From Spirochaetaceae bacterium (GTDB lineage Bacteria; Spirochaetota; Spirochaetia; DSM-27196; SLAA01): DNA of 34,368 nt. This document shows, one piece after another, positions 2,334-33,219 of this stretch. Within the stretch, counting starts at the first letter, position 1, and each line of letters opens with the position of its first letter. The notes beneath the pieces are model-generated. The model ran no database searches and was not told where the DNA came from. It saw only the letters and a program-made list of their open reading frames with translations. A program made the translations under genes and the position numbers. Where the stretch lies: the NCBI GenBank assembly GCA_003552185.1, contig PUOW01000440.1:1-34368 (forward strand). The letters run 5' to 3'.

Positions 2334-4523
2334 TTACACCGCGCGCGGCCCGAGCTCGGAGGAGTCGGGGATGTCCTTCTTCGTGATCGAGCACAAGATT
2401 TCGTCGGTGAGGGGTGAGATCGTCGAGATGCGGTTTGCCTGTTTCTCGACGATGCGTTCGAAGAGGTTGCGTACGAGCCGCCCGTTCCCGAAACTCTTGT
2501 CGCGCGACTGGTGAAGCTCGGTTAAGAGGTTCAGCACGGCGCGCCGCGCCGGTTTCGTGAGCGTAAACGAGGCGTTTTCGGTGAAGATCGCCAAGATCTT
2601 CATGAGATCCTTTGGGCTGTAGTGATCGAAGTAGAAGTACCGGTTGAAACGCGATTTGAGGCCCGGGTTTGAGTCGATGAATCGCTGCATCTCGTCGGGG
2701 TAGCCGGCGACGATCACGACCAGCCGGTCGCGATGGTCTTCCATGCGTTTGAGCAAGGTGTCGATCGCTTCTTGGCCGAAGTCCTTGCCCTGGCTGTCGC
2801 CGGGGCTGAGCGCGTAGGCTTCATCTATGAACAGCACGCCGTCGAGCGCCTCCTCAACGGTTTCGTTCACCTGTATCGCGGTTTGGCCCACATAACCGGC
2901 CACGAGCCCTGCGCGGTCGGTCTCGATGAGATGTCCGCTCTTGAGTAGCCCAAGGCATTTGTACACCTTGCCGAGGTAGCGCGCGACGGTAGTTTTGCCG
3001 GTGCCCGGTGGGCCGTGGAACACCGCGTGCATCGAGAACTGCGTCACCGGCAGGCCTCTGCGTTCGCGCTCTTGGTGCACCTTGATGAGGTTCACGAAGG
3101 TACGAACCTGTTCCTTCACCTTTGCCATCCCGATAAGGCGATCGATATGCTCCATCACCTCCTCGAGCGTTTCCTCTTGCTCCTCGGTCTGTATGCGCGC
3201 CGACTGCTTGCTGCGCTCTTTGCGTTTGGCCCCCGAGTCGGCCTCTCGGACCTGATCTTCGCCGTAGATAACGCGACGGATTCGCTGCAGCCGTCGCGCT
3301 CGCGCCTCCGAGGCCACGCCGTCGGCCTTGATCACCACCTGCGCAAAGGAGTAAAACACCGCCGCCATCTTGTCGAAGTGCGAGCTGTTTTCCTGCAAAT
3401 CGTACAATCTCAGGTACTCGAGCGAGCGCAGGACGTTTGCTTCCTTGGTGTAGCGTTCGGCCTTGCGAATCTCGTTTGCGAACAGGTTCCAGTGCGAGAG
3501 AATGGCCTTGCGTTGATGCAGCGGAAGCGATTCGTAGCGGAACAGATCGACGATGAGATCGCGATTCTTGATGAGGTTTTGGCGCAGCGGCATGAAGGTC
3601 ATCGCTACAAACAGCTTGCTCTCGTCGGAGACGCGGCTCTCGCCCTCGAGACAGAGATGCGCCACATACATCAAGTCGTCGGTCATCTGCTGCAGAAACG
3701 CGGGCTCGCCGTTGAACTGCTTGTACTTGTTTACCTCGAGAAACAACTTGCGCGACTCGGCGTGCAAGAACTTGAAGTTCTGAAGCTTCGCTTCCTGGGG
3801 CGTGAGTTGCAGTCTCGAGTCGGGCAGCTCGTCGTCGGAGTCATCGTTGTCATCGTTGTGGTCGGCATAGTTGGAGTCGTCGGCATAGTTGGAGTCGTCG
3901 GCGTCGTCGGCGTCGTCGGCGTGGGGCGCTTCGGCGGGCGGAGCATCGGCCGGCGGGTCTTCGCTCCGCGGCTCTGCAGAAGGCGTGGCCCGGTCGATAG
4001 GTTCCTCTGCTGCGCGCGACCGGTCGCGTTCGGTCTCGTCTTCGGCCGAGCCGTGGTCTGCCGGCGGGTCGGGAAGGTTTGGGTGCTCATCGATGGGCTC
4101 GCCGGCCTGCACGGCAAGCTTCACCCTTAGGTCTTCAACGAACGACTCGATTTGCTCGGCGGCTCGTGTGGAGGTGAGGACCACGGTTCCGCCGGTGTGA
4201 TGGACGTGAATACGAGTGGAGGAGGCGCCTTGCTTGAGATCGTAGGAGGTGAACGCGGAGTACTCTATGACCTCGGGACGCGCGCCGGAGCTGCCGTTGG
4301 CCAGAAACAGCAACCGACGATCCGTCACACAGAAGATGCCGGGAGTGCCCGACCCGGAGCCGGTCAGTCGTTTGCCGCGAAAAAACCCTTCGAGCACATT
4401 CTCGACCCGCTCGCCGTCGGTGAGGGCGTTCTCGAGCGCGCCGATGAGGTTTTTCTTGAACGATACGTGGCGCCAGTTCGAGATCGAACCAAGCTGCGAC
4501 TCAAGCTCCTCCGGCAACGGCAT
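2334..4523 (-). CDS. Large CbbX/SpoVK-type AAA+ ATPase with N-terminal PH-like and central TerB-like domains
   Basis: The protein has 729 residues in four parts. Residues about 30-140 resemble a bacterial PH domain (GIFCVTDRRLLFLANG). Residues about 145-240 form a Pro/Glu then Asp-rich linker with DDSNYA repeated. Residues about 245-420 are helical and look TerB-like (FVAMTFMPLRQNLIKN, VIKADGVASEARA). Residues about 455-715 are an AAA+ module of the CbbX/SpoVK class, with Walker A GPPGTGKTT near 504, Walker B VLFIDEAYAL near 561, a pore-loop candidate VAGYVGQT, and an arginine-finger region NPGLKSRFNRYF. CbbX itself is a Rubisco remodeller of about 300 aa; here no Rubisco gene is nearby, so the substrate is unknown. 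It lies 76 bp downstream of rpmB in the same direction. The call is firm for the ATPase domain and moderate for the PH and TerB parts. Confidence 0.85.
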   Translation of the reverse strand: MPLPEELESQLGSISNWRHVSFKKNLIGALENALTDGERVENVLEGFFRGKRLTGSGSGTPGIFCVTDRRLLFLANGSSGARPEVIEYSAFTSYDLKQGASSTRIHVHHTGGTVVLTSTRAAEQIESFVEDLRVKLAVQAGEPIDEHPNLPDPPADHGSAEDETERDRSRAAEEPIDRATPSAEPRSEDPPADAPPAEAPHADDADDADDSNYADDSNYADHNDDNDDSDDELPDSRLQLTPQEAKLQNFKFLHAESRKLFLEVNKYKQFNGEPAFLQQMTDDLMYVAHLCLEGESRVSDESKLFVAMTFMPLRQNLIKNRDLIVDLFRYESLPLHQRKAILSHWNLFANEIRKAERYTKEANVLRSLEYLRLYDLQENSSHFDKMAAVFYSFAQVVIKADGVASEARARRLQRIRRVIYGEDQVREADSGAKRKERSKQSARIQTEEQEETLEEVMEHIDRLIGMAKVKEQVRTFVNLIKVHQERERRGLPVTQFSMHAVFHGPPGTGKTTVARYLGKVYKCLGLLKSGHLIETDRAGLVAGYVGQTAIQVNETVEEALDGVLFIDEAYALSPGDSQGKDFGQEAIDTLLKRMEDHRDRLVVIVAGYPDEMQRFIDSNPGLKSRFNRYFYFDHYSPKDLMKILAIFTENASFTLTKPARRAVLNLLTELHQSRDKSFGNGRLVRNLFERIVEKQANRISTISPLTDEILCSITKKDIPDSSELGPRAV
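3826..3930. repeat. In-gene tandem repeats encoding an Asp-rich linker
   Basis: Within the AAA gene the 18-bp unit GTCGGCATAGTTGGAGTC is present twice in tandem (3861-3896), followed by GTCGTCGGC-type triplets. On the coding strand this gives the ADDADDSNYADDSNYADH stretch. Such a region could vary in length between strains without disturbing the folded domains. Confidence 0.8.
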
Positions 4524-23288: not shown

Positions 23289-24161
23289 TTACTGCAGAAG
23301 CTGCAGTACCGTCTGAGGCTGCTGGTTCGCCTGTGCGAGCATCGCGGTCGAGCTTTGTTGCAGGATCTGGTTCGTGACCAAACGTACCATCTCGTCGGCC
23401 ATGTCGGTATCGCGGATGCGCGACTCCGACGCCTGCATGTTCTCGGCTCCAACCGCCAGACCGCGCTGAGCGTACTCGAGGCGGTTCTGGTACGCACCGA
23501 GGTCGGCGCGCTGTTTGCTCACCGTCGTGAGCGCCTCGTCCACAACGCCGATCGCAGCATTCGCCGCATCGGGAGTCGAGAGCGAGAGGAAGGTAGCGGT
23601 GTGCGGTAGTCCGTCGGTGCTTTGAAGACCCAAGGCCTGCGCCGTCATGGTGCCGACGTACACGCGCTCACGCTGATCCATGTTCGCCCCGATGTGGAAC
23701 CACATGCTCGCGGTGACCACGTTGGTACCGGTGTCGGCCGCGAAACGCCCGGTCATGAGATTCATGCCGTTGAACTCGGCGTGCGACGCAATCCGGTTGA
23801 TCTCGCGCACGAGCTGAGACACCTCGACCTGAATCTGCATGCGGTCTTCATCGGTGTAGATACCGTTGGAAGACTGCACCGCCAGCTCACGAACGCGTTG
23901 CAGGATGTCTTGGGTTTCCTGGAGGTAGCCCTCGGTGGTCTGAATCATCGAGATACCGTCGGCAGTGTTCTGCTCGGCTCGATTCAGACCGCGAATCTGG
24001 GAGCGCATCTTCTCAGATACCGCCAGACCCGAGGCGTCGTCGCCCGCGCGGTTGATCCGCATACCGGACGACAGCTTCTCCATGTTGCCCTCAACATCCA
24101 TCACGTTGAATTTCTGCTGGCGTTGGGCAAATGCAGCGCTGGTGTTGTGATTAATGATCAT
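23289..24161 (-). CDS. flaB: Flagellin core protein FlaB
   Basis: FlaB forms the core of the periplasmic flagellar filament. The 290 residues match spirochaetal Fla[21 protein letters not shown], then [20 protein letters not shown] and [20 protein letters not shown], and the conserved C-terminus ([20 protein letters not shown], then [20 protein letters not shown]). The length is as expected; there is no signal peptide, as FlaB is exported by the flagellar apparatus. The track ORF runs to 24368, but ATG 24161 has a perfect AAGGAGGAGAT. Upstream lie a sigma-28-type promoter and a CsrA-like hairpin; downstream a strong terminator, so it is monocistronic. Confidence 0.98.
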
Positions 24162-24184
24162 ATCTCCTCCTTGGATGATCACTC

Positions 24185-24202
24185 CCGGACGTCCCTGTCC
24201 GG
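24185..24202 (-). promoter_or_regulatory. Leader hairpin resembling a CsrA binding site in the flaB mRNA
   Basis: The flaB leader contains CCGGACAGGGACGTCCGG: a 6-bp stem (CCGGAC/GTCCGG) with loop AGGGAC. The core ACAGGGACGT is close to the CsrA consensus ACARGGAUGU, and the GGA lies in the loop as CsrA requires. A second GGA overlaps the Shine-Dalgarno sequence (AAGGAGGAGAT). CsrA is known to repress flagellin translation in Bacillus (hag) and was reported as a FlaB repressor in Borrelia. The site is visible; its use here is inferred. Confidence 0.65.
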
Positions 24203-24241
24203 AATTCGACGTATCTGGGTTCCTACCGAACCCTGCTTCGA

Positions 24242-24268
24242 TTGTCGGCGCCTCGAGTGCGGACTTGA
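24242..24268 (-). promoter_or_regulatory. Sigma-28 (FliA)-type promoter of flaB
   Basis: On the minus strand TCAAGTCC (24261-24268), an exact 11-bp spacer and GCCGACAA (24242-24249) match the enterobacterial FliA consensus TAAAGTTT-N11-GCCGATAA in most key positions. The leader would be about 70 nt. Confidence 0.75.
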
Positions 24269-24334
24269 GCAGAATCCGGAACAAAATCAATTGCAACTCG
24301 CACAGTTTTGCACTACTGTAAGGCCGGAACGGCG

Positions 24335-26149
24335 ATGGCAAGCAGCGCGAACTTACACACTTTGGCACGCAGTTTAAGCGACGACGAGCGTCGCTACCTG
24401 CACGACAGAATCGTACAGAGCCTCAGCCTAACCAAGAGCAGCCAGGAGCAGCACCTCTATCGGGGCGAGCCGCCCGAGGAGCAACGGCGGGCGCTTATCC
24501 ATCGAGAAATCGCGGAGTTCTCGTTCTTGCGGCGTCTGTGGTTCGCCGTTCGGAAGTTCTTTAGCGGGCTCGACGACGAAACGCTTTATCAACAGATGCG
24601 CCTCGGGCGCATGAAGCGCAGACTTCGCCGTGGTGGGAAGCTCTTCATCGATGTCGACAATCGCACGCTCGGCCCGCAGTTCGCCGAGCGGGTATACGAG
24701 CTTTATCGGGCCGCGTATCCGGTAATACCGTTGGTAAAGGCCGCCTGGGGCGGCTCGCAGATGCTGCGCCAGATCGTTGAGTTTCACCTGCGGCGCAGTA
24801 TTCCCGGAGCCAAATACGAACTCGAGCAGTTCATCTCGCTCAACGAGATGATGGAGCTCTTTCGCGCGCACGAGAACAAATCCGAGGTTCGCTCCGAGGT
24901 GTTGAAGCGCCTCAAGACCTATATGGACGGCGTGCACGAAGACGTGTTTCGCAGTATCGCCGAAGGGGTTTTGCCGCTGTATCACCTCCGCGGGCTCGGG
25001 ATGTTTCCGTTCGACGAGTTCTTCCAGCTTTTCTCACACACGCTCGATCTCTCGGTTCCGCAGGAAACCCCAAGCTTCGGGAGCGTGGAGTTTGCGGTTG
25101 TCGGTCCGTATCTCGAGCAGCTGTATTACGGGCTCTACCTTGCCTCGAAGCACGGCAGCCGTAACGTACTTCACGAAGACGTGTTGCGCTTCTACCTGCT
25201 GTACGAGCGCGAGGGCGCCGAGGTGCTGCAGAATGACGATGCGCAGACGCTCGAGCACAAGACCTCCAGCATAGACTCGGAGCAGGTTTCGGGGCTGCAG
25301 GAGAACATTGCGAACCTCTACGAACAAGCCGAGCGTGCGCTGAAAGAGATGCCGCTTGTTGAGCTCGTAAAGGCGGTGCACGACGATCCCTACTATCGCT
25401 TGATGGTGTACGTACCGAGCCTGCACTTGCAGGAGTTCTATCATGCGGCGCTAAAGATACACCTCTTAACCGAGCTCGATGAGCTGTTTCCCCATGTTCG
25501 TCTCGGCGTGATCAACAAGATGATTCACGAGCTCTTCGGCGAAGAGCCGCCCGAGTTCGAGTTCTACCGCACCTCGATTCAGCAGACGGTCAAGAAGCTT
25601 GGGCTGCCGGTCTTCAAGCATATCCGCTCGTTGCAGGTGGTGTATCACTTTGTGCGCGAGATCTATCGGCCCGAGATTGTCGAGCTTCTGCGCGTGCTGT
25701 CGCGGATCGTTCCGGTGCGCGTAAAAGAGGCGGGTCGCGATCTGCTCACGATCGCTTCGGGAATCGAAGACGCCGCCGAGAAGATGCATCTCTTTGACCT
25801 CGGGTTTTCGCCTGATTCAGACGAGGGCAAGTCGTTCTACCGGCTGCGCTACGCGGTCGAGAAAGACGTCAAGCAACAACGCGCCTACCAGAAGTTCGTC
25901 GCGCAGAAAGATCGCGAAGCTCGCACCCTGCTCGACAAGAGCCTCGAGCGGTTCGAGGAGTTGACCACGGTACTCACCAACGTCAAGAACGCCTCGAACA
26001 CTGCGTTAAACGAAAAGTATTCCGCGGTGGCCGGCACCGCGACCCGCGGCGGACGGCCGCTCGATGCGGCGCTCGATCGCCAGCTCACCCGTCTGCGAAC
26101 CCTACGTACAGTGGTGAAGCACCTTATCGCGGTGGAAGAGGGCAGCTGA
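24335..26149 (+). CDS. Large spirochaete-type protein of unknown function (DUF5312-like)
   Basis: The 604-residue protein is mostly helical, without signal peptide or convincing membrane helices. Notable segments are [60 protein letters not shown] and [20 protein letters not shown], with a coiled C-terminus ([20 protein letters not shown]). By recall it resembles the DUF5312 family restricted to spirochaetes; I cannot verify this. The track starts at TTG 24308; ATG 24335 (MASSANLH) is preferred. It is divergent from flaB with overlapping regulatory DNA, which hints at a motility or cell-envelope role, but that is only context. Confidence 0.8.
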
Positions 26150-31094: not shown

Positions 31095-31379
31095 ATGGCG
31101 GTCAAAACCATAACTATAGACATGGAAGCCTATGAACTCTTGGCTGCAGCACGGCGTTCAAATGAGTCGTTCAGCACGGTTATCAAGAACGTGCTCGTGC
31201 CGGCCTCTCATACTGCGGCCTCACTCCTCCATCATCTCGACACCTCCAACGCGCCGGGGTTGAGTGACGATTACCTTGCTGCAGTTGATCGGATTATTTC
31301 AGCCCGCGATCACGACCTCATCGCGGCTGAGCCGACCGAGCCCTACGTCGGAGGGAACGGAGGGGACGGTGCTCCTTGA
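31095..31379 (+). CDS. vapB: VapB-family antitoxin
   Basis: The 94-residue protein has an N-terminal region typical of the VapB antitoxins of the PF02697 type (VKTITIDMEAYELLAAARRS, then NESFSTVIKNVL), expected to form the DNA-binding part, and a flexible C-terminal part that would wrap the toxin. ATG 31095 is preferred over GTG 31092 because AAAGGAGG is better spaced. Its end overlaps the vapC start by 11 bp. Confidence 0.85.
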   Translation: MAVKTITIDMEAYELLAAARRSNESFSTVIKNVLVPASHTAASLLHHLDTSNAPGLSDDYLAAVDRIISARDHDLIAAEPTEPYVGGNGGDGAP

Positions 31380-31785
31380 TACCAGCGTGTGCGTTGATCT
31401 GCTGCGCGAGAAGTCGCAAGGTGTCCGAGGGCCCGCGTATCATGCGCTGGAGGCTCTTGGAGATACCCGGCTGTATCTGAGCATGTACTCGGTTTGTGAA
31501 CTCAGCACCGGTGCCTTGCTGTCCCGCCGGCAGCACGTTGAGCAAAGGCGGGTTTCGGAGTTTGTGCACCATCTCACGGTGCTGTATCCGGACGCCGCAT
31601 TCCCCACCTTGTATGCCGAGGCGGCGGCAGCACTTATTCGTGCGGGAACACCAATGCCGGTTATGGACTTGTTTATCGGTATCACTGCCAAGTTGCACGG
31701 ACTCACCCTTCTCACGCGCGATAAGCCCCATTTTCAACGGATCCCAGGCCTGGCGTTGGAGTATTACGCTACTGCATCCGAGTAA
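31369..31785 (+). CDS. vapC: VapC-family PIN-domain toxin ribonuclease
   Basis: The 138-residue PIN domain shows the acidic residues of the family: LLDTSVCVDLLR (first Asp), SVCELSTGAL (Glu), and MPVMDLFIGITAKLHGLTLL with TRDKPHF (two Asp). VapC toxins cut tRNA or rRNA when freed from VapB. The track ORF starts at 31264, but the family begins with the LLDTS segment, so GTG 31369, preceded by GGAGGGG, is chosen; it overlaps vapB by 11 bp. All catalytic acids are present, so the toxin looks active. Confidence 0.9.
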   Translation: MLLDTSVCVDLLREKSQGVRGPAYHALEALGDTRLYLSMYSVCELSTGALLSRRQHVEQRRVSEFVHHLTVLYPDAAFPTLYAEAAAALIRAGTPMPVMDLFIGITAKLHGLTLLTRDKPHFQRIPGLALEYYATASE

Positions 31786-31895: not shown

Positions 31896-32163
31896 ATGGA
31901 ATCGCCCGAGACTGCGGTCGAGATTATCAACCGGCTTCAGGCAGACGGCATCGAGGTCTGGATCGACGACTTCGGCGTCGGCAACTCGTCGCCGGCGTAC
32001 CTAAAGAATCTGCCGGTGCACACGCTCAAGATCGACCGCCATTTTGCAACCGACCTGGCCGACAGCGAAGAAGACCGGCGCTTCCTCGCCGGGATCATCG
32101 CCGGAATCCAGGCGCGCGGCAAGTCGGTCATTGTGGAAGGGGTCGTCGACGAGCGGCAGGCGT
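31896..32163 (+). pseudogene. EAL-domain fragment (truncated at both ends)
   Basis: The readable part is a middle-to-C-terminal piece of an EAL phosphodiesterase domain: ESPETAVEIINRLQADGIEV, WIDDFGVGNSSPAYLKNLPV, TLKIDRHFATDL and [12 protein letters not shown]. The EAL motif itself and the conserved ITES Glu upstream are missing, and the end of the domain is replaced by sequence that belongs antisense to the chemoreceptor tail. It therefore cannot be a working enzyme. The track ORF runs on to 32210 but is unrelated after about 32163. About 110 bp between vapC and this fragment hold no gene. Confidence 0.8.
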
Positions 32164-33219
32164 GGCCTCGCCGTATTCCGGGGCGGCCAAGCGCCGGCGG
32201 TCGTGGTTGAGCTTGAAAAAGCTCACCGACGTCTGCAGCTGCTCGGCTTGTCCGTTGAGTTCCTCGGACATCGAGGCCATTTCCTCGGAGGTGGAGGCGT
32301 TCTGCTGGATGATCTGGTCCAGCTGACCGAGCGAGGTGTTGATTTGGTCGGCGCCTGTGCTCTGCTCGGCGCTCGAGGCGCTGATTTCCTGCACTAGTTG
32401 GGCGGTCCTTCGAATATCGGGCACAATCTCCCTGAGCATTTCACCGGCTTGCTCGGCCACGCCGACGCTGCGCTGCGATAGCTCAGATATCTCGGCAGCC
32501 GCGGTTTGACTCCGTTCGGCGAGCTTTCGCACCTCGCTCGCAACTACCGCAAAACCTTTGCCGTGCTCTCCGGCGCGGGCCGCTTCGATCGCGGCGTTGA
32601 GCGCCAGCAGGTTGGTGTTGCGAGCGATTTCATCGATGATCGTGATCTTCTCCGCGATTTCTTTCATCGCCTGCACGGTTTCTTCAACCGCGCTGCCGCC
32701 CTGTTCGGCGTTCGTGGCCGCGTTCTGCGCAATCTTGTCGGTCTCGAGCGCGTTCTCGGAGTTCTTGCGGATGTTTGCGCCCATTTGTTCCATCGAGGAA
32801 GATACCTGCTCGGCCTGGGCGGCCTGCTCGGTGGCTCCCTGCGACATCTGTTGTGCGGTTGAACTCATCTCTTGGCTTCCGGAAGCTACATTTCCGGCCG
32901 CCGATTGCACGTCGAGCACCGTCGATGCAAGGCCCTGCTGCATCTTGCGGAAGGCGTCGGCGAGCACGCCCACCTCGTCGGAACGCTCGGTCGCTACTTC
33001 GCGAGTAAGATCGCCCTCGGCGATATCTTGAGCGATCGCAGCCATATCCTGCACCGGGCGCGAGATTCGGCGCGAGAACACAAACGAGAACACGATGAAG
33101 AACAGTCCGATGATCACGGTTATCGCGACGGTGAAGCCGGCGAGGGTTGAGAACTGCTCGATATTGTCGTCGAGCGACTGCTGAAAGGCGTCGGAAATCG
33201 TTCGGCGTGCTGTCGACCA
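32128..33219 (-). pseudogene. Methyl-accepting chemotaxis protein, N-terminally truncated
   Basis: The frame is open from 33219 to 32128. It begins within a receptor just before the second membrane helix ([20 protein letters not shown]), continues with a HAMP domain ([20 protein letters not shown]) and a complete signalling domain whose hairpin tip reads [20 protein letters not shown], then [15 protein letters not shown]. The sensor domain and first membrane helix are absent; a TAA stop lies at 33220-33222. The track start (GTG 33117) is internal. The C-terminal tail after SFFKLN continues into antisense EAL sequence. The kinase-control part could still be translated, but without a sensor it is most likely a relic. 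Confidence 0.82.

Follow-up and report, generated by a model that had tools for sequence, protein, structure and literature searches.

A candidate CsrA-responsive switch in the flaB leader of a Spirochaetaceae bacterium, with a hairpin conserved across much of the phylum

The leader of flaB in a Spirochaetaceae bacterium, contained in a contig of 34,368 nucleotides (the whole stretch of DNA that was analysed, hereafter the window), is in all probability a cis-acting translational switch that would be read by CsrA and relieved by FliW. The probability of this reading is estimated at about 0.9. Spirochetes control their motility genes post-transcriptionally by mechanisms that are only partly known (PMC3757020), and a candidate two-hairpin CsrA element would provide this control with a concrete RNA target, in cultured lineages and uncultured ones alike.

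The flaB Gene and Its Promoter

The features on which the argument is built are listed below, with their evidence in parentheses.

23289..24161, minus strand: flaB, flagellar filament core protein, 290 aa (translation; Flagellin_N and Flagellin_C in Pfam)
24154..24182, minus strand: Shine-Dalgarno (SD) hairpin, UCC-AAGGA-GGA inside the stem GUGAUCA/UGAUCAU (minimum free energy fold; covariation of the mini-hairpin in relatives)
24166..24172, minus strand: Shine-Dalgarno AAGGAGG with the second GGA at 24168-24170 (sequence; spacing in relatives)
24183..24204, minus strand: upstream CsrA-type hairpin, loop AGGGAC, 8 bp, with a 6-bp core at 24185-24202 (folds; covariation; covariance model)
24192..24194, minus strand: GGA of the upstream loop (sequence; GGA loops in relatives)
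24217..24233, minus strand: 5'-terminal hairpin P1, GGGUUC-GGUAG-GAACCC (fold; leaders of the same genus)
24233..24235, minus strand: predicted transcript start (from the -10 element GCCGACAA)
24242..24268, minus strand: FliA/sigma-28-type promoter, TCAAGTCC-N11-GCCGACAA (sequence; relatives; FliA encoded)

The flaB gene runs on the minus strand from an ATG at 24161-24159 to 23289, and its product has close relatives throughout the Spirochaetales. The leader (24162-24235) lies on the same strand as the promoter, the hairpin and the SD sequence, and folds into three stems, namely the 5'-terminal hairpin, the 8-bp GGA hairpin and the hairpin that holds the SD sequence, with an energy of -31.7 kcal/mol (z = -3.1) that only one of 200 shuffles equalled. 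A DUF5312 gene (PF17239; 24335-26149, plus strand) diverges from flaB, and an intergenic region of about 170 nt is common to both. Elsewhere in the window, by eye, a 104-aa frame (31896-32210, plus strand) reads like part of an EAL domain, looks like a fragment and ends beside an oppositely oriented, methyl-accepting chemotaxis-like gene; a 173-aa frame (31264-31785, plus strand) resembles a PIN/VapC-type protein. A repetitive acidic stretch (ADDADDSNYADDSNYADHNDD...; 3731-4130) is found in a 729-aa ATPase-like open reading frame.

The initial annotation had placed a FliA-type promoter before flaB, and this is borne out by the sequence itself, by the motif in relatives and by the presence of a FliA gene. 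The elements TCAAGTCC (24268-24261) and GCCGACAA (24249-24242) are separated by an 11-nt spacer, and FliA, the counterpart of SigD, is encoded in the genome (TIGR02479, 295.8 bits, over the cut-off), so that both the promoter motif and the sigma factor of a FliA (sigma-28) regulon are present; a sigma-70-like promoter was sought in 24100-24400 and none was found. Across the non-redundant flaB genes, TMAAG-N13..16-CCGA occurs upstream of 43 of 94, compared with 0.85 in shuffles, the spacing being 15-16 in nearly all matches. Within the window, neither the promoter motif TMAAG-N15-CCGA (one match, 0.40 expected) nor the loop motif ACANGGANGT (one match, 0.57 expected) is by itself beyond chance; a window as long as this one can easily contain either of them, and for this reason relatives were used. 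Position and conservation lift both motifs well above chance. Given the position of the sigma-28 motif, transcription is expected to start upstream of the GGA hairpin, which predicts a leader of about 72-74 nt. In about half of the 43 matches, CCGA lies 15-20 nt from the hairpin loop, a distance that would place the transcript start of those relatives close to the foot of the CsrA-type hairpin.

The Upstream GGA Hairpin and Its Conservation

The upstream hairpin (24204-24183) is formed by TTCCGGAC and GTCCGGGA around the loop AGGGAC. Sequence and folds agree with the earlier description of a leader hairpin with GGA in its loop, in coordinates as well as in composition, and the A(N)GGA loop motif is the one expected of the upstream hairpin in a leader controlled by CsrA and FliW. 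Hairpins of this type are scarce outside flaB leaders. No more than two ANGGAN-hexaloop hairpins in the whole window have stems that reach 5 bp, the flaB one (8 bp) being the longer; with a stem of at least 6 bp, their density in flaB leaders is 160 times that in the rest of the fetched loci; and with a stem of at least 4 bp, upstream of -18, they occur in 94 of 119 distinct flaB leaders compared with 2.15 in shuffles. When 24100-24400 was compared with 4227 covariance models of Rfam, no match was obtained up to E = 1, and the whole window yielded two tRNAs only; the leader element is a candidate for deposition as a family of its own.

To follow the hairpin in other species, flaB loci were taken from related genomes and the leaders were cut before the start codon. 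Alignment A2, which comprises 94 non-redundant leaders anchored on the A.GGA nearest to -36, was built blind to pairing. In this alignment, 84.0% of the cells of the upstream hairpin are paired (59.5% in shuffles), and the covariation reaches 0.671, compared with 0.232 in shuffled alignments; none of 500 shuffles was as high, and sliding the hairpin along the alignment gave at most 0.277. Compensatory changes on both sides were observed at all six base pairs, and A1, a curated alignment of 66 leaders, gave the same covariation outcome. The loop GGA does not depend on the anchoring: when the best hairpin was picked without requiring GGA, its loop contained GGA in 79 of 95 leaders (11.2 in shuffles), and 89 of 94 full-leader minimum free energy folds leave the first GGA single-stranded within a hairpin. 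Among the close relatives whose leaders could be read, the hairpin is kept, a check that the initial annotation had proposed, in three genomes of the same genus (G001, G003, G004) and two of a sister genus (G005, G006); in the latter genus, one stem pair has changed on both sides between CCGGAC/GTCCGG (L012) and TCGGAC/GTCCGA (L013). With compensatory changes, the upstream hairpin is also retained throughout much of the phylum, in most of its order and in most of the flagellated spirochete genera examined.

The Second Site and the Genus-Specific Stems

The second GGA claimed for the SD sequence is indeed there, within AAGGAGG (24172-24166), 24 nt from the first. A GGA that overlaps the SD sequence at a distance that a CsrA dimer could bridge is a further trait of leaders under CsrA and FliW, and the spacing is a general one: 66 of 94 leaders have 22-26 nt between the two GGA, which is the mode. 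The SD sequence is AAGGAG, ACGGAG or ATGGAG in 90 of the 94, mostly 11-13 nt from the start codon, and is usually flanked by a short stem, as in AATC-AAGGAG-GATT, AACATC-ACGGAG-GATGTT or GTTTC-ACGGAG-GAAAC. This mini-hairpin (ANGGAG) is paired in 77.6% of cells compared with 61.2% in shuffles, with a covariation of 0.344 compared with 0.134, above both shuffles and slides, and the pair counts show that it covaries in many relatives. In the fold of the window leader, the structure to compare with SL2 of Campylobacter jejuni is the SD loop UCC-AAGGA-GGA within a longer stem; it is absent from the RNAalifold consensus of the leaders, in which the upstream hairpin alone was predicted. The pairing of the SD hairpin is less regular in the genus of the window than in its relatives.

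Two stems were seen only in the genus of the window. One is P1, whose energy of -10.3 kcal/mol is better than that of all 200 shuffles and which is kept in the leaders of the same genus that were read (L009, L010, L011), with a G-U wobble in L010 and L011. In this genus, unlike in the other relatives, P1 sits between the promoter and the CsrA-type hairpin. The near-relative alignment comprises six sequences, several of them incomplete, and was used for the 5' part only. The other is the outer stem of the SD hairpin, GUGAUCA/UGAUCAU, which pairs the UG of the start codon.

CsrA, FliW, and flaB in the Phylum

The proposed regulators, csrA and fliW, were looked for in the genome as the initial annotation had suggested, and both were found side by side. 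The csrA gene (PF02599, 86.1 bits; G000:C77:4514-4669) encodes a CsrA of 78 aa, and fliW (PF02623, 123.9 bits; C77:4118-4474) lies directly upstream of it, so that the genome has a csrA linked to fliW, as CsrA-FliW systems do; the pair is downstream of an open reading frame that looks like FlgL. The relatives of solved structure found for this protein are CsrA proteins, the best match being the one in complex with FliW in 5dmb; FliW is matched best by chain A of the same entry. Contig C77 also carries two further standard flaB genes, and the GGA hairpin is present in the leaders of all three. A much larger flagellin-like protein is encoded in the same genome (a 1024-aa frame with an N-terminus 51% identical; L006, 1-1956, minus strand; G000:C293:2603-3040 and 3235-3465), and no GGA hairpin was found in the leader of its gene on C293.

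A covariance model of the element, R1, scores the window hairpin at 39.9 bits (E 2.9e-8 for the genome). In its own genome, at E < 0.2, R1 finds the flaB leader of the window and one of those on C77, with further weak matches at E 0.2 to 7; it missed the other C77 flaB, although the leader of this gene, in which the hairpin is present, was in the training set. Other CsrA targets were sought with R1 only; as a model derived from flaB leaders, it could overlook sites of a simpler kind.

In a census of 247 Spirochaetota genomes with a completeness of 90% or more, 230 have flaB, 225 csrA, 226 fliW and 136 an R1 match. The csrA gene was found in 225 of the 230 genomes with flaB and in none of the 17 without it; for fliW the figures are 226 of 230 and none of 17 (Fisher p of about 1e-22, without correction for relatedness). 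Together with the covarying element in flaB leaders, the occurrence of csrA and fliW only alongside flaB speaks for flagellin homeostasis as the chief function of CsrA in spirochetes. Each of 65 R1 matches, hand-picked for having a listed FlaB on the same contig, abuts the start of that flaB; they represent a consistency check, not an unbiased count. R1 was found in 135 of the 230 flaB genomes and missed in 95. Family f26 (genomes of 0.9-1.9 Mb) has no R1 among the matches listed and has csrA, fliW and a divergent flaB in all its members; many g35 genomes lack R1 too. Either the strict layout does not hold in every lineage or R1 is too restrictive.

Five flaB genomes have no csrA (G080, G121, G191, G215, G295), and each of them has an R1 match. 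Three or four of these five have no fliW either: four flaB genomes are without it, of which G080, G121 and G215 are listed, and in G295 the fliW match is weak only. With the linked fliW missing or weak, the absence of csrA is consistent with an operon contig that is lacking or broken in the assembly; incomplete assemblies or genuine loss could both account for it. For the same reason, the use of these genomes as a natural experiment was set aside.

Proposed Mechanism and Alternative Explanations

Repression by CsrA, relieved by FliW, is the best explanation of these data, because the layout matches that of flaA and hag and because CsrA has been reported to act on flaB in other spirochetes. According to this model, FliA, once free, would transcribe flaB, and a CsrA dimer would place one pocket on the GGA of the upstream loop and the other on that of the SD hairpin, 24 nt downstream. 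The bound dimer would keep the 30S subunit off the mRNA until removed by FliW, which would be able to do so when not itself held by unexported flagellin; the synthesis of FlaB would in this way follow the assembly of the filament. In many relatives, the predicted start of the transcript is near the base of the CsrA hairpin; in the genus of the window P1 comes first, and basal initiation may be lowered by the stem that covers the start codon.

The same hairpins might instead be 5' stabilisers of the mRNA, or plain structures that sequester the SD sequence, with an incidental GGA loop and CsrA uninvolved. Flagellin mRNAs need to be stable and abundant, and the genus-specific P1 and start-codon stem could stabilise or sequester on their own. 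A stabiliser, however, needs no GGA in its loop, and yet the loop GGA recurs in 79 of 95 leaders (11 in shuffles) while the stem sequences change freely; together with the way in which csrA and fliW track flaB across the phylum, this makes such an origin very improbable. Equally little credence is given to the idea that CsrA binding protects or activates the flaB mRNA. In Leptospira interrogans, overexpression of csrA raised the transcripts of flaB1, flaB2 and flaB4, according to PMC8668096, which also describes repression of flaB3 in L. biflexa. The second GGA is inside the SD sequence, where bound CsrA should block ribosomes, as has been reported for flaA (PMC4894983) and hag (PMC7652899).

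A less remote alternative, although still an unlikely one, is that the leader serves mainly as a sponge which frees other targets of CsrA, the repression of flaB being secondary. The flaA leader of C. jejuni does titrate CsrA (PMC4894983), and three flaB leaders per genome would, under active FliA, supply the site in large numbers. Against this, R1 finds no other strong target in its own genome, within its limited reach for simpler sites, and csrA was not found where flaB is absent, so that there may be little else to titrate for. Beyond CsrA repression relieved by FliW, a wider proposal is put forward tentatively, at somewhat less than even odds: in Spirochaetota, CsrA would be a dedicated flagellin regulator and not a global one, with the two-hairpin element of flaB leaders as its main target, maintained by selection from an early stage of the phylum onwards and disappearing together with flaB, and the genus of the window would have gained the 5'-terminal hairpin and the start-codon stem to give a three-part switch.

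Comparison with Known Systems

Systems of this kind have been described before, and reports of CsrA acting on flaB in spirochetes exist as well. In Leptospira, CsrA binds flaB3 and flaB4 RNA, the binding to flaB3 being dependent on the GGA of the SD sequence, and the same report cites CsrA binding at the SD sequence of Borrelia flaB (PMC8668096), in line with the Borrelia parallel drawn in the initial annotation. For Treponema denticola flaB1 and flaB2, sites near the SD sequence have been noted (PMC9481697). These spirochete systems share with the present one the order flgKL-fliW-csrA and an action of CsrA, established or proposed, on flaB leaders at the SD sequence; the available portions of these reports (PMC8668096, PMC9481697) describe a site near the SD sequence and do not mention an upstream hairpin, the two-site spacing or covariation across the phylum.

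In the Bacillus subtilis hag leader, as summarised in PMC7652899, there are two CsrA sites, one of them over the SD sequence, and FliW is the protein antagonist. The flaB leader has likewise two CsrA-type sites, one over the SD sequence, in a genome with FliW; the likeness to hag proposed at the outset is upheld, this layout having been shown experimentally for flaA (PMC4894983) and hag (as summarised in PMC7652899). Here, in contrast to hag, both GGA sites are in hairpins that covary in many relatives, and several flaB paralogs per genome carry them.

The closest parallel appears to be, above all, the flaA leader of C. jejuni, in which translation is repressed by CsrA bound to a pair of ANGGA hairpins, one of which, the second, covers the ribosome-binding site, FliW being the antagonist (PMC4894983). 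Like it, the flaB leader belongs to a flagellin gene with a sigma-28-type promoter and has an ANGGA-loop hairpin and, probably, a second one over the ribosome-binding site, with a fliW in the genome and with compensatory changes among relatives. The C. jejuni leader is 45 nt long (PMC4894983), compared with about 72 nt predicted here, and the extra 5'-terminal hairpin and start-codon stem set the genus of the window apart; conservation here spans many spirochete genera. Within the open-licence literature, several features appear to be new: the upstream hairpin and its conservation, the distance that separates it from the SD hairpin, the covariation at the scale of the phylum in an element without an Rfam family, and the two genus-specific stems. 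The hairpin of the flaB leader adds a well-supported case to a known type of switch and does not define a new type.
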